Positions 754-63,001 of a stretch of 64,000 nucleotides of DNA are shown in pieces (the stretch's first letter is position 1; every line of letters starts with the position of its first letter). This stretch comes from a virus, in IMG/VR virus record IMGVR_UViG_3300035001_000006, positions 18,194 through 82,193 of that record. One strand, given 5' to 3'. A program made the position numbers and the translations under genes. Below the pieces are notes generated by a model. It worked only from the letters and a program-made list of their open reading frames with translations. It had not been told where the DNA came from and ran no database searches.

Positions 754-1149
754 TTAGGCGTTTCCCAGGTCCTTTTCGACCTTGACCTTGAAGGCCTCGA
801 AGTTGTCAGCAAACCCGGAGATCTTCCTGCGGAACTCCTTCACGCCGAGCAGGGTGCGCGCGTTCTCCGTCGAATACGGGATGGGCGGGCCCTGGAACTC
901 GAGGCCTTCCCAGCCCAGCAGGATGGTGGATGCCATCACGTCGATGAACACCTTCTCGGCGGCCTGCTCGTCTTCCTTCGTGGTGCCCTGCAGGTCGATG
1001 CCCGAAGCCTCGAGCTTCTTTCGGAGCATGTGCACGTAGTTCTCGTTGCCAGAGCGTGCGACGAGCACTTTGGCCGTCTTGCTCAGCGGGAACCAGGCGC
1101 CCTCGATTTCCTTCTTCTCGTCGGTGGCGAAAGTGTTGAAGATGTCCAT
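754..1149 (-). CDS. Tail assembly chaperone, G-type
   Basis: A 131-residue acidic protein between the tail tube gene and the tape measure gene. This is the position of lambda gpG and its analogues. It starts MDIFNTFATDEKKE and ends KVEKDLGNA, with the last codons forming a -1 slippery sequence (CTG GGA AAC GCC TAA). Ribosomes that do not slip make this short protein; those that slip make the longer GT fusion. It should act in the cytoplasm as a chaperone for the tape measure protein. Identification rests on order, size and the frameshift site. Confidence 0.82.
   Translation of the reverse strand: MDIFNTFATDEKKEIEGAWFPLSKTAKVLVARSGNENYVHMLRKKLEASGIDLQGTTKEDEQAAEKVFIDVMASTILLGWEGLEFQGPPIPYSTENARTLLGVKEFRRKISGFADNFEAFKVKVEKDLGNA
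760..766 (-). other. Programmed -1 ribosomal frameshift site (GGGAAAC)
   Basis: On the minus strand the sequence is GGGAAAC, and in the frame of the upstream gene it reads G GGA AAC, a perfect X XXY YYZ slippery heptamer. The zero-frame stop codon follows 3 nt later, at 754-756. After a -1 shift the message reads CGC CTA AGC GCG CAC TTG and continues directly in the frame of the GT extension. This is the arrangement known from lambda G/GT and many other long-tailed phages. Confidence 0.88.
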
Positions 1150-1201
1150 TTTGTTTTTCTTTTTGCGGGAGGTGAAAAGCCTAGCAGGGCCTGAGGTCCT
1201 T

Positions 1202-1223
1202 GGGGCAGCTCGAAGGCTGCCCC
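1202..1223 (-). terminator. Stem-loop after the tail tube gene
   Basis: A perfect 8-bp stem (GGGGCAGC / GCTGCCCC) with a 6-nt loop starts 10 nt beyond the tail tube stop codon in the direction of transcription. No T-run follows, so it is a weak terminator at best. It may instead protect the 3' end of an abundant structural mRNA or attenuate the downstream chaperone genes. Confidence 0.5.
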
Positions 1224-1233
1224 AGCGGATTGG

Positions 1234-2463
1234 TTACGCGGCAAGGGCGCGCGTGATGCGGATGCCACGCTGCGTTGCTGCGTCATAGAAGGCGTCGAAC
1301 GGGAGATCCAGCATCACGTCGTCGTCATTGCCGCCGGGGTTCAGACCGCCGTCACGGAACTTGACCTTGTCGAGCTCGATGAGATAGCCGTTGCCAGCTG
1401 CGTCGCAGAAACCCACGGTGAGGCTGGTCCGCTCGCCGTCCAGCCACTTCTTGTAGTAGGTGGTGTCCTGAAAGTACACCTGCATCGAGCCGGAAATCTC
1501 GAACTCGCCCAGGCCGACGCCTGCGTTGCCGAACACACCCACCGCCTTCTGGCCGCGCGCGTTGTTGTTGAGGCTCAGGGATAGGCTCTTGATGAACGAG
1601 CCGTTGGCAAGCAGGTTCGCGCCGCCCTCGTAGACCGTGCCCACGTCCGTGACGGCGTTCATCACCTCGTGCGCCTTCGATGCGACCGGCACGCCCGGCA
1701 GGTAGCTCGCGCCGTCTCGGGCGTCGTGGCTCGAGCCGATGAAGCCGAACGAGCCGGTGATGATTGAGCCCACCTCGACGTTCAGCTCCAGGGTGTTGGG
1801 CTCCATGCCGGTGTAGAGCATGCGCGAGCCGACATCCGTGAGCGAGTGCTCGAAGGAGAAGGTCTTGCGGGCGGGGCCGTTGACGATGATCGACTGGCTG
1901 ATTGCGGAGCCCGCAAGGTCCGCCGCCAGGAGGCCAGGCGCGACGATCGGGGTCGCGGCGTCCACGGCAAGGTTCGTGGTGGTCGAGCCCACGCCGACCT
2001 TGAACCAGGCGTCCGCGAAGTACGCTTTCACCGCGGCGCTGGCTGTAGGGCCCGGGACGACCTTGAACCAGCTGCCTACAGCCAGCGAGGTGAATGCCGA
2101 GGAGCCGGTGGGGGCGACAGCCGCCTTGATGGAATTGGCAGTGGTCTGGAGCGCGAACGCGGCGCCCAGTCCGGCGGTGCCGAAGTGGACGAATGTGCCG
2201 CCGACGATGGCCTCGAGGAAGGGGTCGTACTCGGCTGCCGACAGCTCGAAGTTGAACCCGCCATCGACGTTCTGGTCCACACGGGTGTTGCCCGTGGACA
2301 TCCGATTCGCATTGACCTCGCTCGACTTGGTGGTCTCGATCGAGGCTTTCATGGTGGGCTCCACCATGCGCAGGTTGATGGCGTTGCCGGCGACGGGGAC
2401 TTGGCCCCGCACGGTCTCGGGGATAAAGCGCAGTTGGCCAAACGACCCAGAAGCAAAAGGCAT
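1234..2463 (-). CDS. Major tail tube protein
   Basis: A 409-residue protein starting MPFASGSFGQLRFIPET, rich in glycine, threonine, serine and valine, as in beta-rich tail tube subunits. The N-terminal part, including the RFIPET and NLRMVEPTMKASIETTKSSE segments, resembles the phage tail tube family of long non-contractile tails. At 409 residues it is longer than a bare tube subunit, so an added surface domain is possible. It lies between the tail terminator and the G/GT genes, the standard place, and is flanked by stem-loops on both sides, fitting a highly expressed single product. Confidence 0.85.
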   Translation of the reverse strand: MPFASGSFGQLRFIPETVRGQVPVAGNAINLRMVEPTMKASIETTKSSEVNANRMSTGNTRVDQNVDGGFNFELSAAEYDPFLEAIVGGTFVHFGTAGLGAAFALQTTANSIKAAVAPTGSSAFTSLAVGSWFKVVPGPTASAAVKAYFADAWFKVGVGSTTTNLAVDAATPIVAPGLLAADLAGSAISQSIIVNGPARKTFSFEHSLTDVGSRMLYTGMEPNTLELNVEVGSIITGSFGFIGSSHDARDGASYLPGVPVASKAHEVMNAVTDVGTVYEGGANLLANGSFIKSLSLSLNNNARGQKAVGVFGNAGVGLGEFEISGSMQVYFQDTTYYKKWLDGERTSLTVGFCDAAGNGYLIELDKVKFRDGGLNPGGNDDDVMLDLPFDAFYDAATQRGIRITRALAA

Positions 2464-2509
2464 GGTGTGCTCCGCGAAATTCTTGTTCTTGTGCGGAGCA
2501 GACTAGGAA

Positions 2510-2533
2510 GGGGATTCCCAAAACGGAATCCCC
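2510..2533 (-). terminator. Intercistronic stem-loop before the tail tube gene
   Basis: A perfect 9-bp stem, GGGGATTCC / GGAATCCCC, with a 6-nt loop in the 77-nt gap between the tail terminator gene and the tail tube gene. There is no T-run on the minus strand (TTCCTAG follows). It could be an mRNA processing or stabilising element that separates expression of the abundant tail tube gene from the upstream connector genes. Confidence 0.45.
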
Positions 2534-2540
2534 CGGTACA

Positions 2541-2948
2541 TCACGCGTCGTCGAGCGTGAACGGCGTGATCAGGCCGACCTTGTGCCAGCCATTGACGAC
2601 GGTCGGGATCGTGCGCTGCGGCATGTACAGCGTGGCCGAGCCAAGGCGCCGCCCGCGTAGCAGCTCCTTGATCGCATCGAGCACCTGGTCAGGAAGCGCG
2701 GTGCCCTCTCCTTCCCGGTGGTACACGTTCGTTGCGAAGACCCCAGTGTGGCGCCCGCGCGGCCGCCCGCCGACCGTCACGAATTTCGCGCCATACCAAC
2801 GGATGGTGCAGTCGATCCAGAGCGGACCGACAGTGCTTTCATCGGCCATTGGGCCGTTCTCGTAGAAGGCCTGGACGTCCGGGAACGCGTCAGCGAGCCA
2901 GGTCGCAAGCGTCTCTTGTGCGTCTTTGCGGAATTGTTCGGTGGCCAC
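2541..2948 (-). CDS. Tail terminator / tail completion protein
   Basis: A 135-residue protein (MATEQFRKDAQETLATWLAD...) directly upstream of the tail tube gene. Size, place and the mixed alpha/beta look, with a helical N-terminus followed by strands ending in PFTLDDA, match minor tail proteins of the lambda gpU type that cap the finished tube and join it to the head. No sequence motif proves this. The assignment is by synteny. Confidence 0.6.
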   Translation of the reverse strand: MATEQFRKDAQETLATWLADAFPDVQAFYENGPMADESTVGPLWIDCTIRWYGAKFVTVGGRPRGRHTGVFATNVYHREGEGTALPDQVLDAIKELLRGRRLGSATLYMPQRTIPTVVNGWHKVGLITPFTLDDA

Positions 2949-2955
2949 GGTGCTC

Positions 2956-3513
2956 CTAAAAGTTCGAGTCGATTCCGCCGATCGGAGTGGTTCCGTCTGC
3001 GAGCAGCCCTTCGGCGATCAGCACGGCGCTCTCCATCGCGGTCTCGTACGGTTGGTTCTCTGCGCGCAGCTTGGTCATCCAGTACCCTTTTTCCTGCAGG
3101 TCCGCGAGATAGGCCGCGCTCGACTTCCCTCCGTCGGTGTCCCCGCGGGTGGCGTTGGTGATGTAGACCTTGTCGCCTCGCTTGAGCCGGCGCAGCACGA
3201 ACTTCGCGCGGTCAAGGGCCTCCGACGCCCACTTCATGTCGCCGCGCTCGCGCGCGAGCTTGTTGTTCACGTAGCCGGAACCCGTGAGCTCGAGCTCGTC
3301 GCCCATCCCAGAGTCGAACGAGAGATCCGGCGAATTGATGCCGAGATTCCAATTGGCGACCGCCCGGCCGGAGTACTGCGGAGTCTGAAGAACGATTCGC
3401 TCGAAGATCTGCCACACGACACGGCGGAACAACGCCACCGGCGCATCCTCTACGCGAGCGATCGCCGCCACGATGTCGCGGCTGACGGCGGCCCTGTTCT
3501 TCACCATCCCCAT
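2956..3513 (-). CDS. Head-tail joining / neck protein (HK97 gp10-like position)
   Basis: A 185-residue protein. The start at 3513 (MGMVKNRAAVSRD) is preferred over an ATG at 3546 because an AGGGG Shine-Dalgarno sequence sits just upstream and the start follows the previous stop codon by one base. The segment LFRRVVWQIFERIVLQTPQYSGRAVANW, with a helix then TP and SGRAVANWN, is typical of HK97 gp10-type neck proteins, which often have a TPxxTGxxRxxW-like signature after the N-terminal helix. It should sit between portal-proximal connectors and the tail terminator. Confidence 0.65.
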   Translation of the reverse strand: MGMVKNRAAVSRDIVAAIARVEDAPVALFRRVVWQIFERIVLQTPQYSGRAVANWNLGINSPDLSFDSGMGDELELTGSGYVNNKLARERGDMKWASEALDRAKFVLRRLKRGDKVYITNATRGDTDGGKSSAAYLADLQEKGYWMTKLRAENQPYETAMESAVLIAEGLLADGTTPIGGIDSNF

Positions 3514-3514
3514 G

Positions 3515-4351
3515 TCAGCCCCTACGGACGTGAACGGCGACCGCACCCTCGATCGGGTTGACGGCCAGCACGCTCAGCGACATGCCGGCGAAGGCAATCT
3601 TCGAGGACGTGTCCACCACGGTGCCGTCCGGCAGCGCAAGCGTGAAGTCGCCCTCTTGGTGCCGCGCCTCCAGCTGCGCGTCGTAGCGAAATAGGCTCTG
3701 CCACCTCACGCGCAGAGCGGCGGCGGTCGCCGAGACGCCCGGTGAATAGGCGCCGGCGCCCGGGTTGTAGGTACGGGCCTGGATCGTGGCGTTGACGGGT
3801 TCGGTCTGGTCAAGCCGTACCGCAGTCGCGCCCACGTAGTCCGAGGGGAGTCGACGGACCGAGGTCGTGATGTAGGCGACGCCCGCGCGCCAGAGGATCT
3901 GCTGCGGCTTGAGCTCTGTGCCGAGCGGCAGGATCACTTCGAACACGTTGGCCACGTCGGACGACTCCTCCTCCTGCTTGGCATCCTTCGTCCACGAGGC
4001 AAAGCCGTAGGCGGTCGCCGCGGGCGCGCTGGCCAGGAACTGGGTGATGGTGCCGAGGTTGAACTGCCCGTCTGCCGACTGGAGAACGTACTTGACCCGG
4101 TGCGCCTCATCGAGTCCGTCGATCGAGGGCTCGCCGGCCACGACATACACGGCGCCGAAGACGCGGATGCAGCGGTGCGATGGGATCTCCACGCCAGGAG
4201 CGACGGACAGCACGCGCCGATACGCGACCATCGCGTCGCGCTTGCTGTCGTCGTAGGGATCGATCTGCGCCAGGAACAGCGGGACGCCGGAGTAGGCATC
4301 GAAGACCTCCGTCCGGTCGAAGTACGAAGACGCGGCGGCAAGGGTCATCAT
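3515..4351 (-). CDS. Hypothetical virion connector protein
   Basis: A 278-residue protein between two connector genes in the head-tail region. The sequence is beta-rich with many short hydrophobic stretches (GTELKPQQILWRAGVAYITTSVRRL) and no signal peptide or membrane segment. The place suggests a head-closure or adaptor protein, but its length is above that of usual closure proteins (about 110 residues), so it may carry an extra domain. The family is not recognised. Confidence 0.55.
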   Translation of the reverse strand: MMTLAAASSYFDRTEVFDAYSGVPLFLAQIDPYDDSKRDAMVAYRRVLSVAPGVEIPSHRCIRVFGAVYVVAGEPSIDGLDEAHRVKYVLQSADGQFNLGTITQFLASAPAATAYGFASWTKDAKQEEESSDVANVFEVILPLGTELKPQQILWRAGVAYITTSVRRLPSDYVGATAVRLDQTEPVNATIQARTYNPGAGAYSPGVSATAAALRVRWQSLFRYDAQLEARHQEGDFTLALPDGTVVDTSSKIAFAGMSLSVLAVNPIEGAVAVHVRRG

Positions 4352-4356
4352 GGCGG

Positions 4357-4851
4357 CTACCCCGTGACCGGGTCGTATGAGCGCGTGGCGGCGATGAAGG
4401 CGAGCGGCGTGCGGGCTGCGGCCGCGGGCGTCTGCGCCAGCTCACCGAGAGATGTGATGAGGCTCGCGCGCGACGCCAGGTACATGGCTTCGATCCGCGA
4501 GAGCGTCTCCTTGTAGGGTGCGTCTGCAAAGCGGGAAACGGATGCTTTCCCGTCGCCCACGTCTTTGGGCATGATGCTGGCCAAGGACACGCCGACCTGG
4601 CGCGCGCTGGCATAAGCGCTGAAGAGCTTCGTTGCATCGAGCACAGCCTGCTCCGCTTCCGACCTGTCGCCCGTCGGCTTGCCGGAGATTGCAGAAAAAG
4701 AGGCAGGCAATGACGGCGCGACCTTGTTCAGCTCGCGCACCAGTCCGATCGCGTAGATCGGCAGGTTCAGGACTGCATCGGGAAGCTCGATCGCGTTCAC
4801 CCCGAGGGTCGCGCGAACCTCCGCGTTTTCACAGTAAGGCGTCAGTGCCAT
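4357..4851 (-). CDS. Head-tail connector (adaptor) protein, putative
   Basis: A 164-residue mainly helical protein beginning MALTPYCENAEVRATLGVNAIELPDAVLNLPIYAIGL. The pattern of an N-terminal segment that defines helix boundaries (C/S-x3-VRATLG-x2-ELPD) followed by helical pairs is seen in adaptor proteins that dock below the portal. It lies 5 nt upstream of the next connector gene and belongs to the same polycistron. The function is inferred from place and fold type. Confidence 0.55.
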   Translation of the reverse strand: MALTPYCENAEVRATLGVNAIELPDAVLNLPIYAIGLVRELNKVAPSLPASFSAISGKPTGDRSEAEQAVLDATKLFSAYASARQVGVSLASIMPKDVGDGKASVSRFADAPYKETLSRIEAMYLASRASLITSLGELAQTPAAAARTPLAFIAATRSYDPVTG

Positions 4852-4872
4852 GCCAAAAGCTCCCGCAAAGGA

Positions 4873-5355
4873 TCAGGACTCGCTGGGCGCGATGGCCAGC
4901 TTGCCAGCGTCAAGCTGGAGGGAAAGGAACGCGTCGATCTCGGCTGTCACGGGCGCAGCGCCGAACATGTCGCCGGTGTGCAGGTGTTGGAGCGGGCCGT
5001 GGACGGACACGAGCTCGACAACGTCGCCGATCTTCCAGGCATGTGCCTTGGCAAGGGGTTCGGCTGCAGGTGCTTCGGGCGTGGCGCCCTGATTTGCCTC
5101 TGCGGCAGCAGGGGCTTGTTCAGTTTCCTTCACGGCCAAGGCAGCGAGCGTGTGCAGGGGCAGCGTCTCGCTTTGCCCTGCGTCGGCGGTATCCTGTGAC
5201 ACGCGCGCCGGCCGCTCTTCGAAGTGAAGGGAGTTGTCGGGCGCCGGCGGGGTGGCGGCTGCCCCCTCTTCCAGCGCGGATGTGATTTCGGCGACGGGCG
5301 CTGCGGGCGCGGCGGCGGGCGCAGAGTTGAGCGTGAGGGTGTTCTTCCGGGACAT
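4873..5355 (-). CDS. Hypothetical virion-region protein with Ala/Pro-rich N-terminus
   Basis: 160 residues. The first 100 are low-complexity, rich in alanine, proline, glutamate and threonine. The last 60 (KIGDVVELVSVHGPLQHLHTGDMFG...) look like a small beta-barrel. It sits between the major capsid and connector genes. A short folded domain on a flexible stalk would suit a capsid accessory or spacer protein, but no family is recognised. The start at 5355 has an AGGAG Shine-Dalgarno sequence 6 nt upstream. Confidence 0.5.
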   Translation of the reverse strand: MSRKNTLTLNSAPAAAPAAPVAEITSALEEGAAATPPAPDNSLHFEERPARVSQDTADAGQSETLPLHTLAALAVKETEQAPAAAEANQGATPEAPAAEPLAKAHAWKIGDVVELVSVHGPLQHLHTGDMFGAAPVTAEIDAFLSLQLDAGKLAIAPSES

Positions 5356-5382
5356 GGGGGACTCCTGTTGCGGATGGAGAAA

Positions 5383-5410
5383 GGCGCCGGCCAGCGAACC
5401 GACCGGCGCC
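5383..5410 (-). terminator. Terminator/attenuator after the major capsid gene
   Basis: A GC-rich hairpin, GGCGCCGG / CCGGCGCC (8-bp stem, 12-nt loop), starts 22 nt after the capsid gene stop codon on the minus strand and is followed by TTTCTCC. It resembles an intrinsic terminator with a short U-tract and may limit read-through from the strongly expressed capsid gene into the connector genes. Confidence 0.55.
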
Positions 5411-5431
5411 CTACTGCTGGGTCTGCGCTGC

Positions 5432-6613
5432 TTAGGTGAGCGTCAGGACCTCGAACGCTTCGTCGAACAGGCGATACAGGAGCTCGCCCTTGTCGACACG
5501 CATCGCCGTGGAGCGCTTGAGCACGAACTGCTCGATGGCGCTGTACTCCGCGGTGAGCGACTTGACGCGGTGCACGGCGTAGCGCGTGTCCATGCCCATG
5601 ATCGTGCCGGCCGGCCAGTTCACGTCGTTCGTCAAGAAGATCTTGACGGTCGAGGTCCAGCTCGGGTTCACCACCTGCATCAGCGTGTCGATGCGCGGGC
5701 TGTTCGGGTTGTCGTTCTGGTTGGTCGGCTTGCCCACCCGGTTCTCGATTGCCATCGCTCCGGCAAGGTCGGTCACCACCAGGTCGATGGTCCGCTTGTG
5801 CGCGTTGCGCGCCAGCCACTTGATCCAGGCGGTCTGGGTCAGCTTGCCGGCGGTCGCGTCCGCGTCGAGCGTGCTGGCCGCGACGACCTTGCCGGCGATC
5901 GAGGAAAGCGCGGCGATGGCGTAGTCGGTGTCGCCGTTCAGGAACGACAGGATGTAGGCATAGGCCTTCTCGTTCGACTCGACCGCTGCCTGGCGACCGA
6001 CCGCAAGGCCCACCAGGTCAAGCGTGGTACTGCGCTGCGCCTGCTCGGAGATCTCCATGCCGATCGCCCAGCTGGGGATCTTGCGGGCCACGTCCGACGC
6101 GGTGATCGTCAGCATGGACTGCGGCAGCGCGAGCTGGCCGACGGGCGCGCTGCGGGCCGCTTCCGGGTTGCTGAAGTTCAGCACCGGGCGCTCGAACTTG
6201 TCGCTGGCGATGCTGTCGTCCACAGCGATCATCATGTCCAGCCCGGCGACGCTGGTCTTCAGGTCGGTGGCCAGCTTGTCCTCGATCACGCCCAGGATCA
6301 CGGCCGGGAAGAGGATGCGCGAGGCTGGCACGCCTTCCTTGGTGATGGCCGCAGCGTCCTGCTTCGGGTTCAGCACTTCGCCCACGGTCGAGGGACGGAT
6401 GCCGAATTCCTTGTTGCCCTTGACGAAGATGCCGGTCTGCTCGCACAGCTGCTCGAACGGGCTGCCGTGCTTGGCCGCGTCGGTCGGGAACTGCGTCGCG
6501 AGGTACTGCGGCACGGTCTGGCCCGCGTCTGCAGCTTCCTTGTACGTGTGGAGGCCGAGGTCGATCGCCTGGTTCTTGCCCTGCGCGTCGATGAAAACGA
6601 GTTCTTTGCCCAC
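5432..6613 (-). CDS. Major capsid protein
   Basis: A 393-residue protein (MGKELVFIDAQGKNQAIDLG...) in the canonical capsid position downstream of the maturation protease and decoration genes. Its size and composition, including regions such as EMGISEQAQ-like segments, fit an HK97-fold shell subunit. The helix-rich middle and the C-terminal LLYRLFDEAFEVLTLT are as expected. There is no obvious N-terminal scaffold arm, consistent with the scaffold being fused to the protease gene here. The start has a GGAG-containing leader and the gene is followed by a hairpin. Confidence 0.85.
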   Translation of the reverse strand: MGKELVFIDAQGKNQAIDLGLHTYKEAADAGQTVPQYLATQFPTDAAKHGSPFEQLCEQTGIFVKGNKEFGIRPSTVGEVLNPKQDAAAITKEGVPASRILFPAVILGVIEDKLATDLKTSVAGLDMMIAVDDSIASDKFERPVLNFSNPEAARSAPVGQLALPQSMLTITASDVARKIPSWAIGMEISEQAQRSTTLDLVGLAVGRQAAVESNEKAYAYILSFLNGDTDYAIAALSSIAGKVVAASTLDADATAGKLTQTAWIKWLARNAHKRTIDLVVTDLAGAMAIENRVGKPTNQNDNPNSPRIDTLMQVVNPSWTSTVKIFLTNDVNWPAGTIMGMDTRYAVHRVKSLTAEYSAIEQFVLKRSTAMRVDKGELLYRLFDEAFEVLTLT

Positions 6614-6642
6614 TTTTTTCTCCTTGTTCTGTGGGTTGGTGA

Positions 6643-7125
6643 TCAGACGCGTTCGATGACCGCGACTTGGCCGACGGCGCCGGTGCCCTTGAGGGCGACG
6701 ACGCGCCAGAGGAACGTGAGCTCCCCCTTTGCGGCGGTCGCCTTGCAGACGCGCGGGTGGCCCGGCAGCTTCGTGCCGCGCGCGGTCACAGTGCCCGCCA
6801 CGACGAAGTCGTTGACGGCGATGGCACCCACGCCGGGGGTGGCCTGCAGGCCGTCCAGCGTGACGGTCTTGCGGCCCGTCTCTTGGATCGTGCCGAGCTT
6901 GAAGCCGTCGTACAGCGCCCCGCCGGCCTCATCGGCCGTGACCAGGAAGCCTTCGATCTCGTCGCCGGCGGCGCACAGGCCGTACTGGCTGTCGCCCTTC
7001 AGCTTGACGAACTTGTTGACGTCGGCGTCGGACAGCGGGTTGGCTGCGCCGGCGCCGTCCGCGACACGAACGGTCTTGTTCGTGTCGTACGGGCGGATCA
7101 GCTCGTTGAGTTGGAACTTCGCCAT
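6643..7125 (-). CDS. Capsid decoration / stabilisation protein, putative
   Basis: A 160-residue beta-rich, glycine- and alanine-rich protein directly upstream of the capsid gene. The pattern (KLKGDSQYGLCAAGDEIEGFLVTADEAGG...) resembles small decoration-like capsid proteins that follow the protease in many siphoviruses. It has a clear Shine-Dalgarno sequence (AAGGAGAAAAACC) before its ATG. It would bind the outside of the expanded capsid. The call comes from synteny and composition. Confidence 0.6.
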   Translation of the reverse strand: MAKFQLNELIRPYDTNKTVRVADGAGAANPLSDADVNKFVKLKGDSQYGLCAAGDEIEGFLVTADEAGGALYDGFKLGTIQETGRKTVTLDGLQATPGVGAIAVNDFVVAGTVTARGTKLPGHPRVCKATAAKGELTFLWRVVALKGTGAVGQVAVIERV

Positions 7126-13788: not shown

Positions 13789-13879
13789 TCCCCCGGATCC
13801 AAGTGATCGAAACGGACTACTGCGGAGTGGGGGGCCCGAGTACCATCGCGGTTACATTGGGTTGCGAGGAGACGTACAC

Positions 13880-15160
13880 ATGCATGAGAAGTTCCAGCCG
13901 ATCGTTGACGCCTTGGCAAGTTTGGCCGAAACGGTAAAAGCCTCAACAACAGAAACGCGCTCGGCTCAGGAGATATCGAACGCCTGGAATTTCCCGGCTC
14001 TTGATAAGCATGACCTGATGAACAGGGCCAACATGCTTGCCTCGCTCGTGCGGGCGCGAGCCCCCGACGAGGACACGGAGGAGTCAGTGGACGTGGCAGT
14101 AGTAGTGTCCAGGATCAAGTTGCTCCAATCCCAGACAGTGCCATATTGCTTCAACGGCCATGGGAACGTTGCCATTCCCGCTTTCATGACGACGCTCGAT
14201 GGCATGCAGGCATGGATGGAAGCCTCTTGGCCCACTCGTGAGTCATTAGACCCAAGCTCATTCCCTGCAAAACTTGCCCGGCAGGCACGCGCCGCGAAAT
14301 CGCGCCTAGACTCTGTTTTAGAAGGGCTTGACGATCTTGATCACCGACTGGAGTCTATCGTTGCCGCGCATCAAGCGGCCGAGGCTTTACCGACGGACCT
14401 GGAAGAACTTAAGCAGTTGCGACTCACCCTTGTTGCTCTCAATGGCCAATCCACTGCAGACTCTCAGGCAATTGGCGAGAAGCGAGAACTGGTGCAAAAG
14501 TCCTTGGAAGCGATTCAAGAAGATGAAAGAACGGCTCAACAGCTCGTCTCAAATTGCGGGGAGGCGTACCGCATTACGACAACGAAGGGTTTAGCAAGCG
14601 CCTTCGACCAGCGTGCAAACTCCCTCGCGGTTTCAGTACGAATTTGGGTTGGAGGTCTGGTAGTAGCATTATTGGCTGTCGCGCTCATTGGACACAATCG
14701 CGTCACTGCGTTGAGTGCCCTTTTAGAAAGCGAGCCGCGGTGGGGCGCGGTTCTTTTGAATTTTCTACTCTCGGCTATCAGTGTCGGCGCCCCCCTTTGG
14801 TTCGCATGGGTTGCAACGAAACAGATTGGCCAGCGCTTTCGCCTTTCCGAGGACTATGGGTTTAAAGCAAGCGTCGCGAAGGCATACGAAGGCTATCGAC
14901 GGGAGGCGGTGCGTATCGATCCTGAGTTCGAAGCTCAGCTATTCGGAATCGCGCTCAGCCGATTGGACGAGGAACCCCTCCGACTTGTGGAAACGGAGTC
15001 TCACGGAAGTCCTTGGCACGAAATGCTTGATGCAGCTCAGCGCGTGCCGGGTTTCAAGGAGAAAGTCACTCAGCTAGCCAAGGATGCTCTCCGCAAGAAA
15101 GACGTAGCGTCGAGGGGAGTGACACCGGAGTCAAGTCCAGCCGATTCGACACCCGCTTGA
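13880..15160 (+). CDS. Coiled-coil protein with two transmembrane helices (cargo)
   Basis: 426 residues from the ATG at 13880, chosen because GAGGAGA lies 7 nt upstream. Residues up to about 240 are helical with heptad-like regions. Two membrane helices follow (VRIWVGGLVVALLAVALIGH and VLLNFLLSAISVGAPLWFAW), then a cytoplasmic tail with FKASVAKAYEGYRREAVRID. Codon use is more AT-rich than in the late genes. It sits between late operon and repressor on the opposite strand to both, a usual place for genes expressed in the lysogen. A role in superinfection exclusion or defence is possible but not shown. Confidence 0.7.
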   Translation: MHEKFQPIVDALASLAETVKASTTETRSAQEISNAWNFPALDKHDLMNRANMLASLVRARAPDEDTEESVDVAVVVSRIKLLQSQTVPYCFNGHGNVAIPAFMTTLDGMQAWMEASWPTRESLDPSSFPAKLARQARAAKSRLDSVLEGLDDLDHRLESIVAAHQAAEALPTDLEELKQLRLTLVALNGQSTADSQAIGEKRELVQKSLEAIQEDERTAQQLVSNCGEAYRITTTKGLASAFDQRANSLAVSVRIWVGGLVVALLAVALIGHNRVTALSALLESEPRWGAVLLNFLLSAISVGAPLWFAWVATKQIGQRFRLSEDYGFKASVAKAYEGYRREAVRIDPEFEAQLFGIALSRLDEEPLRLVETESHGSPWHEMLDAAQRVPGFKEKVTQLAKDALRKKDVASRGVTPESSPADSTPA

Positions 15161-15185: not shown

Positions 15186-15995
15186 TTAATCGACCCACAT
15201 GCCAATGACGGTCCCGAGCACCTTGAACTCCTCGCGGATGGGCTCGTGCTGGGGGTTCAGTGGCATCAGCCACTGCCGTCCGTCCTCGTTTTTGTAGACC
15301 TTGAATGTCACCTCGTCGGTGCCCTCGAGCTTGGCAATGATCCGATCGCCGTTGTCGGGCGCGCGCTTCTCAGGATCGACGTAGATCAGGCTCCCTTCTG
15401 GGTAGCTGCGCTTCGCGCCACTCGGCGCGGTCATGCTGTCACCGCGCACACGAAGGACGTACGAGCTCGCGCTCATCGCTTTCGGGCTGGCGTACCACCC
15501 TTCCGCGTCGCCCGGCTGCAGATAGTCGTTCGCCGCGTCCCACTTGCCCGCACGGATCCACGAAATCAGCGGGAGCATGCGGATTTGGCTCGGGCCCGGA
15601 GAAACGTTCGTACGGGCACCTTCTGCCGCGTCCTGAACTTCGTCATCCGGGGTGTTTCTCTGGCCCTTGTGACCGCTTGGATAGGCCTTCTTCACGTGGT
15701 TCCGAACCGTCCCTTCAGACATCCCGAACGCATTTGCAACGGAGGCGATGTTCTGACCTGCCATCACGGCCTTCACATGGTCCGACTCCCGTAGCTCTTC
15801 CATCGTGTACGTGGGGCGCTGCCTGATCTTCCCCGCGGCCAGAGCCTCCGCATAGGCTGGATCAGCAATGATCAGCCGGCGCAGCTCCGTCGGATCAACT
15901 TTCGCAGCTTTAGCCTGAGAATTTATGGATAGACCGTCACGAATGACAGCTTGGACATAGGGTGAAAGGTCTTTTGCAGTCATGCGCGCCATCAT
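15186..15995 (-). CDS. CI/LexA-type prophage repressor (S24 peptidase)
   Basis: 269 residues from the first ATG; the ATG at 15983 is an alternative. The N-terminal half holds a helix-turn-helix-like region near 20-45 and a clearer one at 78-103 (QNIASVANAFGMSEGTVRNH). The C-terminal S24 domain has the Ala-Gly cleavage site in SWIRAGKW (149-150), catalytic Ser187 in RGDSM and Lys232 in VTFKVY. RecA-stimulated self-cleavage would therefore induce the prophage, as for lambda CI. The gene starts at the edge of the operator region, with hardly any leader, and a TAGAC half-site overlaps its start codon, so it probably controls itself. Confidence 0.93.
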   Translation of the reverse strand: MMARMTAKDLSPYVQAVIRDGLSINSQAKAAKVDPTELRRLIIADPAYAEALAAGKIRQRPTYTMEELRESDHVKAVMAGQNIASVANAFGMSEGTVRNHVKKAYPSGHKGQRNTPDDEVQDAAEGARTNVSPGPSQIRMLPLISWIRAGKWDAANDYLQPGDAEGWYASPKAMSASSYVLRVRGDSMTAPSGAKRSYPEGSLIYVDPEKRAPDNGDRIIAKLEGTDEVTFKVYKNEDGRQWLMPLNPQHEPIREEFKVLGTVIGMWVD

Positions 15996-17304: not shown

Positions 17305-17847
17305 ATGAAGCAACCCCGCTTATTGACCGCCAACGGCAAAGCCAAAACGGCCAGCCCAAACGGTGGCCCTCGCAGTGGTTTCGAGGTGGTCGACAAACGG
17401 GGCTTTGTGCGCCTTGTTGGCAGCATGGCGACTGCACCTCAGAACGACGCCGGCATCTCGGACATATCTCCGAGATTTGAGGAGCGCGTCGACGGGGTCT
17501 GGCAGTCGGTCTCGTGGACGACGCTGAGCCAGATCCGCCGGCTGAAGACCGAGCGAGACCGCCGCGCCTTCTTCGCTGTGCGTGTGGGCCTGGTGCGTGA
17601 GCTGCCGGGGGACGCGCACGGGATCGTTGACGGGGAGGCATGGTGCTGTCCGCGCGACTACGACCGCGCCCTGGACCGGGACCAGTTCCTGGCCAAGGCG
17701 CTCAAGGTGGGCTTGCTCTCTATTGGCGGGCGCACCTACAGGCTCCGGGAGATCCGGCCCGACACGATTCAGCTGAACCGCGCCGCGGGCAGCGTCAACT
17801 ACACCCGCGAGGCGCTGCTCGAGAGCATCTCGAGCGGCTCAATCTGA
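17305..17847 (+). CDS. Hypothetical early protein
   Basis: 180 residues, plus strand, starting MKQPRLLTANGKAKTASPNG. The first 60 residues look disordered. The rest (WTTLSQIRRLKTERDRRAFFAVRVGLVRELPG...) is a compact basic mixed domain. The family is not recognised. Two near copies of the dispersed motif flank or lie in it (17230-17240 upstream and 17625-17635 inside, both on the minus strand). Confidence 0.6.
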   Translation: MKQPRLLTANGKAKTASPNGGPRSGFEVVDKRGFVRLVGSMATAPQNDAGISDISPRFEERVDGVWQSVSWTTLSQIRRLKTERDRRAFFAVRVGLVRELPGDAHGIVDGEAWCCPRDYDRALDRDQFLAKALKVGLLSIGGRTYRLREIRPDTIQLNRAAGSVNYTREALLESISSGSI

Positions 17848-19545: not shown

Positions 19546-19890
19546 GGCGAAACCAAACTGCTGTCACGCAGCGCGCCGGGCGCCCCCGACAACGTCAACC
19601 GAACGGACCTGACCGTGAGCACCGGAACCCACCGGGGCCCGGCCTGTGTCGCTGCGACCGACGTTGTCGGGGATCCCGCCTGGCGCCCCGGCTGCGCTTG
19701 ACCCCGATCACCCCGCCCTTGCTGGCGGCTCGAGCGCTCTGAGCGCCGACGTCGAACCCGGCGCAGAGCGATCTGCACAACAGGAGGAGCCGCCGTGCAC
19801 ACCTTACCGGCATGAAGCGGGCGAGCCGCTACGCCATCCCCTGAGAGCCTTCGCAAAGCGTGAGCGTCGAAGGCTGTTCAGACCCTGCGC
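19546..19890. other. Intergenic stretch with inverted pair of the dispersed motif
   Basis: 345 nt without a convincing gene. CCCCGACAACGTC at 19584-19596 and its exact complement GACGTTGTCGGGG at 19660-19672 form a 13-bp inverted repeat with a 63-nt spacer. The open frames across it have low-complexity Arg/Pro/Ala products typical of GC-rich non-coding DNA. Confidence 0.6.
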
Positions 19891-20214
19891 TTACCGACCG
19901 GAAAAATCCCAACGATCCTTGGGCATCTGCGGGTCCGCTGGCCCCTCACGAAGCCAAGGCACTCCGCGAATTATTCGAAGGTCAAGGCGAAGCGCGGCAC
20001 CAAAAGCAAAGCCCAGTACGCCGTTTGCACCCCCAGCGCAGCTCCACAGCACAACTTCGATCTCGCTCATCTCGCACATCCAGCAAGGGAGCAAGAAGAA
20101 CGAAAGAACGAAGCACCAAAAGATGACGTGGGCAACTCGATTGATTGCCGTGTAGAGCCTTCGCTCCCGGCGCGTCAGCGGATGGGGCGAAACGTCATTT
20201 CGTGGGATCAGCAT
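19891..20214 (-). CDS. Small membrane protein (cargo)
   Basis: 107 residues on the minus strand, against the early operon. Two membrane segments are seen: VIFWCFVLSFFLLPCWMC and VLWSCAGGANGVLGFAFGAAL. The N-terminus is basic (RRERRLYTAINR). This is the first of five minus-strand genes in the 19.9-24.6 kb cassette. Its function is unknown; a superinfection-exclusion role would fit a small inner membrane protein but is only a guess. Confidence 0.55.
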   Translation of the reverse strand: MLIPRNDVSPHPLTRRERRLYTAINRVAHVIFWCFVLSFFLLPCWMCEMSEIEVVLWSCAGGANGVLGFAFGAALRLDLRIIRGVPWLREGPADPQMPKDRWDFSGR

Positions 20215-20294
20215 TTAGCTCAATCGAGTATTTCAGATCCGAGACACAGACACCACTGAAGCGAAAGCCGCAACAGCGGCACGAATGGTAAGCA

Positions 20295-20861
20295 CTATCC
20301 ATCGCCGAGTCGCGGCCCCTCGTTGACGACCGATCGGATCCACTCGATAGCAGAGGAGATGCTGGCCGCGCGTAGCGACGGGTCGCCTCCCCCGTGGTCG
20401 AACTGCCTGCCCTCGATTTCGACCAAGCGGTCGGGATCCGATTTCATACGCGACAGGGTCCACTCCCACAGATCGCGCCGTGTTGCATAGCTCCACCAGT
20501 TCGAGAAGTGGCAGATAAGCAGCGGCTGCGTGGGCGAGTTGCTCAGTTCGCCGCGGCAGTAAGGCCAGTACTTGAGGAGGTTCGACAGGGGCAGCTCTTT
20601 GCTCTCGAACTCCACAACAACCTTCCACCCGAGATACGGCGCAGTCGCATCCCCAAGCTCGAACCTCTCCGAAGTCCGGGCGCCAACCGCTCGGCGGCAG
20701 GCGTAGGGGGTCACGAACGCGGCGCAGTTCTGCGTGACTTGACCGCCGGACCAGAGGAGGCTCTCCCCGGCGGCCTGGTTGAGCGACTGCCTGAACTCCT
20801 CGAGAAACCCCGACTGCGTCAATCCCATGCCTTCTCTCCGACAGCTGTAATTCGCGGCCAT
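20295..20861 (-). CDS. Hypothetical cargo protein
   Basis: 188 residues, minus strand. A soluble, aromatic-rich sequence (LGWKVVVEFESKELPLSNLLKYWPYCRGELSNS...ICHFSNWWSYATRRDLWEW) with no membrane segment. The family is not recognised. The pattern W-K-V-V-V-E-F-E-S-K-E resembles a nuclease-type E-x-K strand, but no partner residues can be fixed with confidence. It belongs to the minus-strand cassette. Confidence 0.6.
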   Translation of the reverse strand: MAANYSCRREGMGLTQSGFLEEFRQSLNQAAGESLLWSGGQVTQNCAAFVTPYACRRAVGARTSERFELGDATAPYLGWKVVVEFESKELPLSNLLKYWPYCRGELSNSPTQPLLICHFSNWWSYATRRDLWEWTLSRMKSDPDRLVEIEGRQFDHGGGDPSLRAASISSAIEWIRSVVNEGPRLGDG

Positions 20862-20934
20862 GCCGCCATCGAAGTCTAGCGCGGCCCCCCGCGCCCAACT
20901 CGCCGCCTCGCCGGCAGCACCACCCCCCTAGACC

Positions 20935-21363
20935 ATGAACGAAGCCCGCCTCCTACTCCTCGCCGACGCGCTCGAGCATCGCATTCCCGCCGACAAGTTC
21001 GACCTGGCCGAGTGGCGCGGTCGCGAAGACTACGACCCCGATCGTGATGACCGCCCGGGGACCTACGTCACAGACGCCGCGCTGCTGCACGGCTGCGGGA
21101 CTACCGGATGCGCCGTGGGCTGGGCATGCGCGCTGCCCGAGTTCAACGCCGAGGGCTTGACCTGGGACGGAACCATGCCCGCCTACCACCAGCCCGGGCC
21201 CCTGGGCCTCAGCTTCATCCACTTCGAGGCTGTGAACCGGTTCTTCGGCATCTGCGAGGAGGACTCCAGCTACCTGTTCCTGAGCTCCTCCTACGACGAC
21301 CCGGCGGGCCCGCTTGACGTGGCGGCTCGCATTCGTGAATTCGTAGCCAATCGTCGGGCCTGA
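20935..21363 (+). CDS. Hypothetical protein with GCGTTGCAVGWA motif
   Basis: 142 residues, plus strand, within the otherwise minus-strand cassette. Helical start (EARLLLLADALEHRIPADKFDLAEW), then a central cysteine-containing loop HGCGTTGCAVGWACAL, and an acidic C-terminal half. The Cys pair and the sequence type recur in proteins of actinobacterial and proteobacterial phages, to my recollection, without known function. Confidence 0.6.
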   Translation: MNEARLLLLADALEHRIPADKFDLAEWRGREDYDPDRDDRPGTYVTDAALLHGCGTTGCAVGWACALPEFNAEGLTWDGTMPAYHQPGPLGLSFIHFEAVNRFFGICEEDSSYLFLSSSYDDPAGPLDVAARIREFVANRRA

Positions 21364-21580
21364 TCCACTGCTGGGTGCCCGGCCGTTCGAAACTCGCTAC
21401 ATTCCAGCGCTTCTGGAGGAATTGTCTATGCCGCTCTCGGCGTGTTCGGGGCAAGCTATCCGTGGGTCACAACCATTTTCCTGGACGGGGTAGCCGGCGT
21501 TGCGCCGCGGAGATCGACAGGCTTCGGAAAAAACTCGAGACGCACGGAATCGCGGAGTGGTAGCCTGAGCTGGCACAGCT

Positions 21581-22195
21581 TCAATTTCTGGCGTGTAGCC
21601 CCAACTTGATCCGAACCTTTTCCCACCGGTTCGCCTCACCCCATCGCTGCTCTTCCAGTTGAGCGCTCTCACGCACTGCCCCTCGACCCAAGTAGAACGC
21701 AGAAAGGCTCACCGAACATCTGGCCGCCGCAGTCCGGACGTCCTCCAGATTTGCGAGGACCCCACCCCTCAGGTTCTTCATCCTCGGCTCAAACGCGTTT
21801 TGAATCCAGTCGAGACTCTGTGTCGCGCTACGAAGGCGGTACAGCAGTACCGGCAAGAGTGCTAGATCGCTCGCAGTTTGTGGGTGAATCACTGCGATTC
21901 GCATGATGTGCTCCGCAGTCGGATCGCTTAGCCGCGCGATGCTGTTGGCGGCCTCGATGAAAGGCCGCCAGTTCCCCACCGGACCCGAGGCGTCGCGGTA
22001 GGCCTCCTCTGCCTCCTGTATCGCGGAGGACAGTTTGTGCAACTCTGCGTGCATCAGGACTGCTGACGCCTCAGCAAGGTTGGCGGCTTCGACTCGCCGC
22101 GCCCTCTCGCCGGACCTTGCGATCCAAATCGCCGCCAAGATCGCGGCGACCGAAAAAATGGCCTGGAACCACCCAGACCATTCCGACTTTGTCAT
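21581..22195 (-). CDS. Membrane-anchored helical protein (cargo)
   Basis: 204 residues from ATG 22195 (MTKSEWSGWFQAIFSVAAILAAIWIARSGE); the open frame goes further upstream but with an unlikely leader. One N-terminal membrane helix is followed by a long helical cytoplasmic part. The layout (short N-out, one helix, soluble helical domain) is shared by many phage and defence proteins of unknown function. Minus strand, next to the probable nuclease gene. Confidence 0.6.
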   Translation of the reverse strand: MTKSEWSGWFQAIFSVAAILAAIWIARSGERARRVEAANLAEASAVLMHAELHKLSSAIQEAEEAYRDASGPVGNWRPFIEAANSIARLSDPTAEHIMRIAVIHPQTASDLALLPVLLYRLRSATQSLDWIQNAFEPRMKNLRGGVLANLEDVRTAAARCSVSLSAFYLGRGAVRESAQLEEQRWGEANRWEKVRIKLGLHARN

Positions 22196-22430
22196 GCAGA
22201 GTGGCCACCACTCCAAGCCCAGCAGGCAGTACTCCGACGTTGGCAATCGACTTCTCCTCGTTGGCGGGATCGTAGCTCGACAGCTGCTCCCGGCCTTCGT
22301 GTCTACCGCCAGCACTTTCAACGTGATTTACAAAGCACCCCAATGCCGCAACAAACTCGCCTGACTCTCTGACCAGCCGCCCGCGCACGGCGCACGGCCA
22401 GCCCACTCCGAGTACGAGATCCGCTTGGCC

Positions 22431-23921
22431 TTACGTCTGATTAGACCGCTTGCTCGGCTTAGAAGCAGCACCTGTTGCTTTGCCTTCCAGTCGCGGAACG
22501 TCCTCTAAGCCTTTAGGAATTGGGAAAGCTACGCGTCCAGCGGTATTGACCAGCGCTTCTCGGCAAGCTTTCGCGTAGCTTAGATCTTTCGACTCGAGAA
22601 CATACTGCATGGCAAAGAACAAATCAGGGGTAAACACCAGTGCCGTTTGAGACATCTCTGCGGCCGTACAACATTTATCCGTAAACGGGTCGCCCCGCTC
22701 TGGCAGCGGAGCTAGTCGAAAGGCATTACCAAAGAGGACCGGCTTTGCAAGCTTCTGCACCTCTTCGCGTTGGAAGTCCTCTTGGATGTTCATCGCCAGT
22801 TGCCGAAGCTTCTCGATGTTCACGGCTTTGTTGTCCTTACCTTCTGCTTCTCCGATAAGGCGTCCTTCGGCGGATTCGAATACGACATCAAACTCGGAGT
22901 CCGTTAGCTTGAAGTTTGAGGCACTGAATCCTAAGCATTTGAGAGCACCGATGATCGCAGCCTCCAAAGGCCTGCCTTTCTCGAAGAGAAGCGCACGACT
23001 TACCCCTGCCTCAATTAACGAGCATTCAATGTTCTCCTTTCTTCTTTGAGCCTCCTCCACTGCTTTCTCAGCTTCCAACAAAGCAGCCTTCAAGTTTTTC
23101 TCACCGGTGAGTTCAAAGGAAGGATGCTCAGCCCAAGCGGGCGGAGGGGTCGCACCCATTTCGGAACGAAGGGACTTGTCGAGCGAAACCATTGCTGCGA
23201 TTAATCGCGCTGCAAAATGATAAGCATTCTCGGTGTATTCAAAATCTTTGGCCTCGTCGAAGAACTCGTCTGGGTTGAATTCGATGTTTGGCAGCAGCAA
23301 AAGGGAGCCCTGCGAAGTCTTGCTGCGTAATAACGCTCCTACCGCTCTGTCGCCATTCTTCGTAGTTATTAGAGGGGGCACTTCTAAGTCCGGGAGCAGA
23401 ACCTCGAAGGTCGAGGCTCCGGAAAACTCGTCCCAGTACGAAGATAAAATTTCAGCACCCTTAGATGCCAATTTCATCGAGTTTCCACGGGCTACCAACG
23501 GCGCCGTCATGCCTGGGATCATTTGATAATTGGAACAGGCCGAGACCATGCGCGTCGTCCGTGTGTTCTTACCAGTTCCAGAATACTGTTTCGCGCCAGT
23601 GTCCGCGTAGAAACCAATTGATTCTGAAAGAAAAACTACCACCATTTTTCCTGCATCGACTGCTTGTTTGATTTCGCGACGCCAATGCTCTGTGGCCTCA
23701 CGCAGCCGAAAAGATCCTGTAGTAGTTAGACTCGGCTTCCCTTGGTAATAATCGTCGTGGTAGCGCGAAAGCGCGTCAGCCACGTCCGGCTGGAACAGAA
23801 CAATATCCCAGTCAAGAAGTGACACCTTTGACTCAATGTCTTCGTAAGCGACATCATCGGACGCCAAGGAAAAGCCAACCGAAATTATCTTCTTTGCCAA
23901 GGCAGACTCCATCATGCTCAA
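22431..23921 (-). CDS. Probable PD-(D/E)XK nuclease-domain protein (cargo, possible defence)
   Basis: 496 residues with lower GC than its neighbours. The N-terminal part (KKIISVGFSLASDDVAYEDIES...DWDIVLFQPDV) looks like an alpha/beta domain. A coiled coil follows at about 265-295. The C-terminal part holds LTDSEFDVVFESAEGRLIGEAEGKDNK, which fits the D-x(n)-E-x-E-G-K core of restriction-endonuclease-like folds, as in Mrr-type domains. The lone reverse-strand placement inside an early operon, foreign composition and nuclease motif suggest an anti-phage or exclusion gene. The family is not recognised with certainty. Confidence 0.65.
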   Translation of the reverse strand: MSMMESALAKKIISVGFSLASDDVAYEDIESKVSLLDWDIVLFQPDVADALSRYHDDYYQGKPSLTTTGSFRLREATEHWRREIKQAVDAGKMVVVFLSESIGFYADTGAKQYSGTGKNTRTTRMVSACSNYQMIPGMTAPLVARGNSMKLASKGAEILSSYWDEFSGASTFEVLLPDLEVPPLITTKNGDRAVGALLRSKTSQGSLLLLPNIEFNPDEFFDEAKDFEYTENAYHFAARLIAAMVSLDKSLRSEMGATPPPAWAEHPSFELTGEKNLKAALLEAEKAVEEAQRRKENIECSLIEAGVSRALLFEKGRPLEAAIIGALKCLGFSASNFKLTDSEFDVVFESAEGRLIGEAEGKDNKAVNIEKLRQLAMNIQEDFQREEVQKLAKPVLFGNAFRLAPLPERGDPFTDKCCTAAEMSQTALVFTPDLFFAMQYVLESKDLSYAKACREALVNTAGRVAFPIPKGLEDVPRLEGKATGAASKPSKRSNQT

Positions 23922-24122
23922 TAGCTAACGTGCGACCACTTACTCGCACCAGCTAATTTAGCGTCAAATATTTTCAGATCTGTATTGCGGATCGTAGCTG
24001 AACGCCAACCCACCTTTCCTCTCTGTCGATGGCATGTGCAAGATCCCCGATGGAACCCTGGTTGTCTTCAAGGTCCACACCGGCAATTCGCGAGATGGGC
24101 GCGGACGCTAGCAGCATTAAAG

Positions 24123-24605
24123 CTAAATCCTTCGGTGCAGTTCTCCAGCAGGTCGGCGATCCAAGCTTTTTAGAGCGTCAAGGGATTGCTGAATTCGGGC
24201 ATTCGCTTCTCTCGCCCGTTTTATCGATCGACTCTGAAAAAATTCCGAGATGATAAGTACAGGACTAAGAAGTAGCCCAGCAACGTGAAACGACATGGAG
24301 ATTAGCTCAATCCTTGAAGGCGCACCAGGCCGAATTGCAAAGATGAGCAAACTGTAGAAGGCGAAAGCTCCTAAGCAAAAGTAGACCAGATAGGCGATGA
24401 GGCTTTCAACATACGAACGCTCCTCCGCGGAGAGTTTAGCGTGGGCATAGATCGCGGCTACCGCGATTGCCAAGATCGGAATTGCGTACGACACGGCTTC
24501 TCCTCGTAGTTTGACATCCAATTGTCGCTGAGCCGAGTCAGCACGCGCCAGTCGACGAAGTGCCTTCCGCCGCACGTCATCACACCGGGGAGTTTCCAAG
24601 AGCAT
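24123..24605 (-). CDS. Membrane protein with about three transmembrane helices (cargo)
   Basis: 160 residues. Hydrophobic segments: AVSYAIPILAIAVAAIYAHA, AYLVYFCLGAFAFYSLLIFAI and ISMSFHVAGLLLSPVLIISEF. A basic, helical C-terminus follows. It is the last gene of the minus-strand cassette and its start lies 48 nt from a bidirectional terminator that separates it from the plus-strand genes. It may work together with the nuclease-like protein next to it, but that is inference from closeness only. Confidence 0.6.
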   Translation of the reverse strand: MLLETPRCDDVRRKALRRLARADSAQRQLDVKLRGEAVSYAIPILAIAVAAIYAHAKLSAEERSYVESLIAYLVYFCLGAFAFYSLLIFAIRPGAPSRIELISMSFHVAGLLLSPVLIISEFFQSRSIKRAREANARIQQSLDALKSLDRRPAGELHRRI

Positions 24606-24652
24606 TCAGACCTGTTCCGGCAGCAGTGCTAGCCCGACAACGACAACTCCAA

Positions 24653-24675
24653 AGCCCGCCTTGAGCGGGCTTTTT
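24653..24675 (+). terminator. Intrinsic terminator T1 (AGCCCGC-N5-GCGGGCT, T5)
   Basis: A 7-bp stem with loop CTTGA and a run of five T; the AAA before the stem makes it able to work in both directions. A variant copy of the dispersed motif (24632) lies 11 nt upstream. It stands between the minus-strand cassette and the lipoprotein gene. Confidence 0.85.
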
Positions 24676-24694
24676 CATGCCCGAAAGGACTTCA

Positions 24695-25432
24695 ATGACC
24701 CAGTTCAAGATCGCTTCCCTACTGCTGGCGGCGTGCCTCGCCGCGTGCGGCGGCGGAGGCGGCGGCGGTGGCTCGGCCAGCATGCCGATCCTGCCTGTCA
24801 CTGCCGTGCCGCCCGCATCGCAGGCGCCCAGCGCCCCCGCCGCGCCGGGCCCCGGCAACGCCAAGGATTGCTCCGTGGCCCTGTACGGCGACTCGATCCT
24901 GCACGGAGCCTACAACGACGCCGCGGGCGAGCGCCGCCTGGCCGAGCCGCCAGCGGCCGCGCTGAAGCGCCTGCGGCCCGCCTACACCGTCACGGACCAC
25001 ACGCTCTCCGGCCAGTCCGCCCGCGCGCTGTCGATGACGTTCAACAACGCAACGCGCACCGCGAAGATCGTGGTGATCGAAAGCGGCGTGATCGATGCCT
25101 GGCGCAACGACCCGCCGGTCGAGACCGTGAAGGCGATGGCCGAGTACGCCCGGGCTGAGGGCCGCAAGGTCGTGATCACGGGCTTCTCCCGCATGCTGGT
25201 GTCGACGCGCATGGGCGTGACCGAGGCCGCCCTCGACCGCCGAGACGAGTTCAACCTGGCCATGAAGGCCATGGCCTCCGCGATGGGCTACGGCTTCGCC
25301 GACTTCGGCGCGGCCGCCTTCGACGACGGCTCCGTCGTCGACCAGATCCACCCCGGACAGACGTACTCGCTGCGCCTGGTCGACCAACTCGTGGCAGCGC
25401 TCGACCGCGCCGCGCCGGGATGCGCGCAATGA
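24695..25432 (+). CDS. SGNH/GDSL-type hydrolase lipoprotein
   Basis: 245 residues from ATG 24695, chosen for the AAAGGAC Shine-Dalgarno sequence and because it gives a proper signal peptide, MTQFKIASLLLAACLAAC, with lipobox LAAC. A run of eight glycines follows as a linker. The hydrolase part shows the block I GDS motif (ALYGDSILHG), an ES-x-V-I-D segment in place of block III GxND, and DQIHPG carrying the catalytic Asp-x2-His. Such enzymes remove or move acyl groups from lipids or sugars at the cell surface. A surface lipoprotein inside an early phage operon is unusual and points to lysogenic conversion. Confidence 0.8.
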   Translation: MTQFKIASLLLAACLAACGGGGGGGGSASMPILPVTAVPPASQAPSAPAAPGPGNAKDCSVALYGDSILHGAYNDAAGERRLAEPPAAALKRLRPAYTVTDHTLSGQSARALSMTFNNATRTAKIVVIESGVIDAWRNDPPVETVKAMAEYARAEGRKVVITGFSRMLVSTRMGVTEAALDRRDEFNLAMKAMASAMGYGFADFGAAAFDDGSVVDQIHPGQTYSLRLVDQLVAALDRAAPGCAQ

Positions 25433-55464: not shown

Positions 55465-55554
55465 ACAACTTGATGCAGAACGTGAAAGGAAGCAACATTG
55501 CTGCGGCGGCCGCTGTCTAGGTCAAGCCATCCCTTCACCTCAAAGGAACTTCAC

Positions 55555-57195: not shown

Positions 57196-57214
57196 CTCAC
57201 ACGCCAAATCATTC

Positions 57215-57243: not shown

Positions 57244-57247
57244 CCTC

Positions 57248-62994: not shown

Positions 62995-63001
62995 CTGGGA
63001 C

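Follow-up and report, generated by a model that had tools for sequence, protein, structure and literature searches.

A variable cargo locus among the early genes of a temperate phage and its probable anti-phage nuclease with an amidotransferase-like domain

Introduction

The gpA-gpQ (old/tin) locus of P2-like phages is an anti-phage hotspot of a few kilobases, in which genes for nucleases and membrane proteins turn over at a high rate while the phage genes on either side are conserved (Rousset et al. 2022, PMC9122126). We have analysed a comparable locus, hereafter called the slot, at positions 19816-24632 of a 64,000-nucleotide stretch of viral DNA (the window), which comprises bases 18194-82193 of the 82,193-base virus record IMGVR_UViG_3300035001_000006. 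The slot resembles the P2 hotspot in its size, its turnover and its nuclease and membrane genes, and the P2 hotspot itself houses one homologue of the slot nuclease, in a P2-like prophage. Unlike the P2 hotspot, the slot lies among the early genes of an unrelated temperate phage of about 80 kb with its own DNA polymerase, and its borders are a structured non-coding element on the left and a terminator on the right. We consider it likely that the slot is a hotspot for variable cargo genes within the early region of a temperate phage lineage, and that the main gene in it encodes a stand-alone anti-phage nuclease, which is mobile.

The slot nuclease, a protein of 493 amino acids, can be compared with described proteins domain by domain. 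Its C-terminal part shares the predicted fold and the D...ExK active-site arrangement with the nucleases FokI, HindIII, AF1548 and EndoMS, at about 8-15% sequence identity; unlike in FokI-type enzymes, this part is attached to a domain resembling a glutamine amidotransferase (GATase) and not to a DNA-recognition domain. The predicted fold of residues 3-252 matches aminodeoxychorismate synthase, GMP synthase, HisH and the N-terminal domain of IFT52, but this domain, unlike class I GATases, has no conserved cysteine. In Cap4-type effectors of the cyclic-oligonucleotide-based anti-phage signalling systems (CBASS), a ligand-binding domain is fused to a PD-(D/E)XK nuclease. The likeness to Cap4 is one of general logic only: Cap4 chains were weak matches in the Foldseek comparison, and, unlike Cap4, the window family has no SAVED domain and no nucleotide cyclase was seen beside its homologues.

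Results

Three virus records related to the window in their backbone were found by a search with the primase, and the closest of them was G001 (primase 91%). DNA identity between the window and G001 ends at 19815 and returns at 24633. The early genes flanking the slot are kept in G001 (for example, 17305-17847 at 83% and 24677-25432 at 74%), and between them the 4.8 kb of the window slot are swapped for 6.8 kb of other genes. On the minus strand, the G001 slot encodes a Schlafen protein (AlbA_2) that has a membrane helix at its C terminus, together with proteins of 113, 857 and 195 amino acids, and it also holds small plus-strand genes. The 857-residue protein is a SEC-C protein with a D...ExK-like stretch recognised by eye, and its plasmid relatives are annotated as SEC-C or NERD. 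A preliminary description of the window had proposed a comparison with relatives as a check of whether the stretch is variable. Since G001 matches up to 19815 and again from 24633 with different genes in between, sequence comparison indicates that the slot is a variable cargo locus, exchanged as a block between fixed borders, rather than core phage DNA; none of the three backbone relatives carries the window nuclease. A locus of a few kilobases in which genes turn over and the flanking phage genes are conserved, as expected of a hotspot, was thus found at 19816-24632, in two alleles only.

The left border had been proposed to be an inverted motif pair and the right border a bidirectional terminator. 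Both are common to the window and G001 and the DNA between them is not, so they are the borders of the exchanged block. On the left, the motif pair lies at about 19572-19690, with stem arms of about 27 bp, within a non-coding element (Table 1) with a fold z of -3.9. The element is 87% identical in G001, which is above its flanking genes, and the stem is kept there; it had no match in Rfam. It ends in a Shine-Dalgarno sequence (AGGAGG) and a six-codon open reading frame (ORF) with a GTG start at 19795 (GTG CAC ACC TTA CCG GCA TGA), whose stop codon (TGA ending at 19815) is the exact point where homology to G001 ends. The element may function at the RNA level, encode a leader peptide or be what is left of an interrupted gene. 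On the right, the hairpin itself (-16.6 and -21.3 kcal/mol) stands, but its U-tract is good only rightward (TTTTT) and weak leftward (TTT), so that "bidirectional" was a generous term. The motif CCCGACAACG, present at both borders, was also considered as a recombination site and was rejected; it has many copies across the window, and most of them fall within ORFs, in which the motif can encode Pro-Asp-Asn.

Table 1. Positions of the slot genes, the slot borders and the repressor gene in the window
Position	Strand	Feature	Remarks
15186-15995	-	Peptidase-S24 repressor	
19550-19815	.	Left border, 266-bp non-coding element	Long inverted repeat CCCCCGACAACGTC ... GACGTTGTCGGGG inside larger stem
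19891-20214	-	Small putative membrane protein, 107 amino acids	One predicted helix (hydropathy)
20295-20828	-	Soluble protein, family unassigned, 177 amino acids	ATG start with Shine-Dalgarno GGAGAGAAGG upstream
20935-21363	+	Small protein, 142 amino acids	CGTTGCAVGW motif; similar to plus-strand genes of the sister slot
21581-22195	-	Protein of 204 amino acids	One N-terminal membrane helix (hydropathy) and long cytoplasmic part
22431-23912	-	Key gene, 493 amino acids	Predicted GATase1-like domain, long helix and FokI-like PD-(D/E)XK nuclease
24123-24605	-	Putative three-helix membrane protein, 160 amino acids	Hydropathy; upstream of the nuclease gene
24633-24676	.	Right border	G001 homology returns at 24633; terminator hairpin 24651-24673, conserved in G001

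The nuclease gene is certain, because an ORF of its size is beyond chance (at least 490 amino acids in 0 of 300 simulated regions) and because the protein is conserved in distant bacteria. Its likely start is an ATG, at which the homologues also begin. AlphaFold2 was run on an alignment of 12 family members and gave a predicted local distance difference test (pLDDT) of 82.9 and a predicted template modelling score (pTM) of 0.51; a first model with a pLDDT of 53 had been discarded as poor, and three more divergent members brought the value up. In the model, a GATase1-like domain (about 3-252) is followed by a long helix (269-309) and a PD-(D/E)XK domain (about 302-463), and, because the pTM is low, it is uncertain how the domains are placed relative to each other. 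When compared with VIA-align, residues 302-463 matched the cleavage domain of FokI (Z 12.0 over 145 residues at 3.0 Å), AF1548 (Z 10.9) and HindIII (Z 9.2). Residues E311, E317, D342, E357 and K359 are invariant in 12 of 12 members, and D342 and E357-G-K359 are located on or beside the predicted strands 343-346 and 351-359. According to the model, the domain would combine the restriction-endonuclease-like core fold with the D...(D/E)xK site, as in the PD-(D/E)XK superfamily. Residues 3-252 matched many class I GATase folds (Z about 9-11, the best being 10.9 over 167 residues at 3.6 Å). Considering that no invariant cysteine was found in residues 1-255 across the 12 members, we read the first domain as a predicted GATase-like fold that would serve as a binding domain rather than as a usual working amidotransferase.

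No model of Pfam, PADLOC, PHROGs or NCBIfam matched the protein at E up to 1, and sequence searches of the PDB, with the single protein and with the alignment, gave chance matches only. Single-sequence pattern scans of viral and genome contigs found no homologues, and only alignment-based searching worked. Full-length homologues, with 45-53% identity to the window protein, were found in Enterobacter plasmids, in five genomes (including Pseudomonas, Marinomonas and Sulfuricurvum), in six virus records and in two further genomes. The family therefore occurs in phages, in plasmids and, in a scattered manner, on chromosomes, and its conservation extends to other phyla. Its distribution is patchy, and in sampled genomes it is rare: one order had it in 1 of 399 genomes and one genus in 2 of 249. 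One Enterobacter plasmid copy (L002:9992-11395) is interrupted by an in-frame stop some 20 codons short of the usual C-terminal end, and the frame downstream of this stop still encodes the conserved tail. If the nuclease worked in the lytic cycle of the phage itself, in host DNA breakdown, recombination or packaging, with its opposite strand being incidental, its position within the early region, adjoining replication genes, would be expected. This explanation is quite improbable: the gene is missing from all of the backbone relatives, homologues occur on plasmids and chromosomes without phage neighbours, and the gene opposes early transcription and differs in guanine-cytosine (GC) content.

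Recognised defence genes lie in the neighbourhoods of a number of relatives. In a P2-like prophage (L029, the same record as L011), the nuclease copy is located between the genes for replication protein A (gpA) and the portal, which is the published P2 gpA-gpQ hotspot, and it adjoins a HEC-08/DUF3644 protein (PADLOC E=2e-134). This P2-prophage copy had no close DNA match in E. coli genomes. In another record (L040), the copy is part of a phage defence cluster (969-7097), in which it adjoins Septu PtuA/PtuB (E=4e-77 and 5e-47) and a PifA-like KAP pair, and an apparent P2 gpD gene follows further on, as seen by inspection. The copy in L039 lies on the opposite strand between apparent gpD and tape-measure genes. 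A further P2-like prophage with tail genes (L027) has the copy beside an Mrr-like endonuclease (PDC-M36A), and in L041 the copy apparently lies in a Mu-like phage, at its left end (a transposase-like gene there has a weak match to TnsB), and adjoins a type II methyltransferase. Other copies adjoin a SIR2/ThsA-like protein (L007), lie near PDC-S60 (L033) or, on an Enterobacter plasmid (L002), stand beside an integrase.

These neighbours bear on two other explanations. On the one hand, the nuclease could be a modification-dependent (type IV-like) or restriction-type enzyme, whose N-terminal part reads DNA and which is not gated by a ligand. The C-terminal domain is nearest to FokI and HindIII, and the Mrr-like protein and the methyltransferase would suit such an enzyme. 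We consider this unlikely, because the N-terminal domain has a GATase-like fold, for which we know of no DNA-recognition role, and because most family members have no accompanying methyltransferase. On the other hand, the nuclease could be a selfish addiction or toxin module with a neighbouring antitoxin, retaining the prophage rather than defending it. Some chromosomal homologues (L004 and L005) do adjoin small gene pairs of toxin-antitoxin type, as judged by inspection. However, no conserved partner gene was seen beside the nuclease in the loci examined, which leaves no candidate antitoxin, and the two-domain design of 493 amino acids suits a sensor-effector better, so the addiction explanation is improbable. 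As no conserved partner was seen, we regard the nuclease as a single-gene module.

The preliminary description had counted five minus-strand genes with an inserted plus-strand gene, three of them with membrane segments and one nuclease-like, facing against early transcription. All six ORFs were confirmed at the positions given there; membrane helices are predicted in those at 19891 (one), 21581 (one) and 24123 (three), and the nuclease-like gene showed the nuclease motif and the predicted fold. Better starts are likely for the genes at 22431, 20295 and 21581, in the last case an ATG just ahead of the membrane segment. The idea of a single five-gene cassette is not supported: nuclease homologues occur without the other four genes, the gaps between the slot genes range from 80 to 750 bp, and the GC content is split. 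GC is 0.51 at 22431-24605 and 0.65 around this nuclease part, and the difference from the 0.62 at 19816-22430 speaks for a composite history of the stretch. No convincing minus-strand promoter turned up at the locus.

For the smaller ORFs, the evidence is uneven. The gene at 20295 has a third-position GC of 0.80, which is of coding type, compared with 0.57 in the opposing ORF. The plus-strand protein at 20935 matched L020:8749-9162 in BLASTP (E=2e-5) and a protein in G002 (32% over 82 amino acids); since similar small plus-strand genes occupy the same slot of the sister phage, it seems, by similarity, to come from a set of small genes that is the phage's own. The first 65 or so residues of the 21581 protein, which contain the membrane segment, have a weak match to phrog_33632 (E=5e-7). 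Its N terminus looks like that of the 195-residue protein of G001, and this match was rejected as not significant (E=0.16). Searches of family libraries and further homologue searches gave no informative relatives for the proteins of 177, 204 and 160 amino acids, and the 107-residue protein, scanned against the family libraries only, had no relatives there. The ORFs of 160 and 107 amino acids have lengths that chance alone would give (simulation predicts 1.2 and 6 per region). Because membrane helices are their sole support, we accept them only as probable genes. The membrane proteins beside the nuclease may be separate exclusion genes. Decay of the whole slot into DNA without function, in which most ORFs are spurious, would agree with these two chance-length ORFs and with the poor scores of four slot ORFs under the phage's own coding model, but this explanation is highly improbable, as the nuclease gene has an intact reading frame and the catalytic residues of its product do not vary even between distant bacteria.

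The virus of the window is a temperate phage in an integrated state, since its tyrosine integrase gene (59412-60680) ends at a tRNA-Val gene (60623-60699) that adjoins a host RelA/SpoT gene (60751-63063). Late genes (terminase, portal, tail) run leftward below 13.7 kb. From 16394, small early genes are followed by ligase, helicase, primase and DNA polymerase genes, all rightward, and the minus-strand ORFs of 19891-24605 are located within this region and oppose its direction. Between the leftward late genes and the repressor, a plus-strand gene at 13862-15160 encodes a 432-residue membrane protein (phrog_34659; GC about 0.55), which is another possible cargo gene. An SbcD/SbcC-like pair, a calcineurin-type phosphoesterase followed by an SMC-like ATPase, lies at 51044-55306. 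A second low-GC block, near the integrase (55498-59005), encodes a large repetitive beta-helix-like protein, an acyltransferase (PF01757) and an SGNH-hydrolase-like ORF, and resembles a cargo region for surface modification (seroconversion). In G614, a GDSL gene was also considered and turned out not to lie within a related prophage.

Discussion

We have compared an exchangeable slot of a temperate phage with that of its sister phage and followed its nuclease into other genomes. The 493-residue protein is most likely a single-gene anti-phage nuclease with its first domain as a sensor, and the carrier probably uses it against rival viruses. The preliminary description had suggested an exclusion or defence island, and this interpretation is partly supported: the same genes are absent from the relatives, and nuclease homologues occur in a known hotspot and beside defence genes, but the unity of a five-gene cassette was overstated.

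Several points weigh against the reading of the slot as cargo with an anti-phage nuclease. PADLOC-DB 2.0.0 gave 0 families for all proteins of the locus in the window. A near neighbour with a PADLOC match below 1e-7 was found at 7 of 14 loci, compared with 0 of 10 distal control genes (Fisher p 0.019), but the near neighbours were partly picked by eye, which biases this enrichment upwards and makes it supportive rather than a clean test. The immediate neighbours at L004, L005, L006, L008 and L009 had no PADLOC match below 1e-7. As a single close sister phage was found, the variability of the slot is seen from two alleles. In terms of structure, the best Foldseek E-value to the PDB was only 1.4e-3, and the GATase-like assignment comes from the fold alone.

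Concerning the molecular mechanism, expression of the nuclease gene would come from the prophage and would not depend on the early operon. A pocket in the GATase-like domain may sense a small molecule or a protein of an infecting phage, and binding of this ligand could release or dimerise the nuclease, in which case dimerisation may occur through the long helix. The activated nuclease would then cut phage DNA, or host DNA as well in an abortive response that kills the infected cell. More tentatively, we propose that the family is an undescribed one-protein immune effector, in which a cysteine-less amidotransferase fold senses infection and gates a FokI-like nuclease, and which unrelated temperate phages (the ~80-kb phage, P2-like and Mu-like phages) shuttle between cargo slots; we regard this as possible, at somewhat less than even confidence. 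Searches of the literature outside subscription journals found no description of an architecture of a GATase-like domain with a nuclease. Judging by the libraries and papers covered, neither the slot nor the nuclease family seems to have been described, and prophage defence hotspots as such were already known.

In summary, if the favoured reading of the slot and its nuclease is right, the slot would be a new hotspot, clearly delimited on the left and on the right, and could be mined in further phages of this lineage. The nuclease would add an uncatalogued family of defence nucleases to the phage-borne arsenal, and it would be an example of an amidotransferase fold that has been put to a new use, the sensing of infection.

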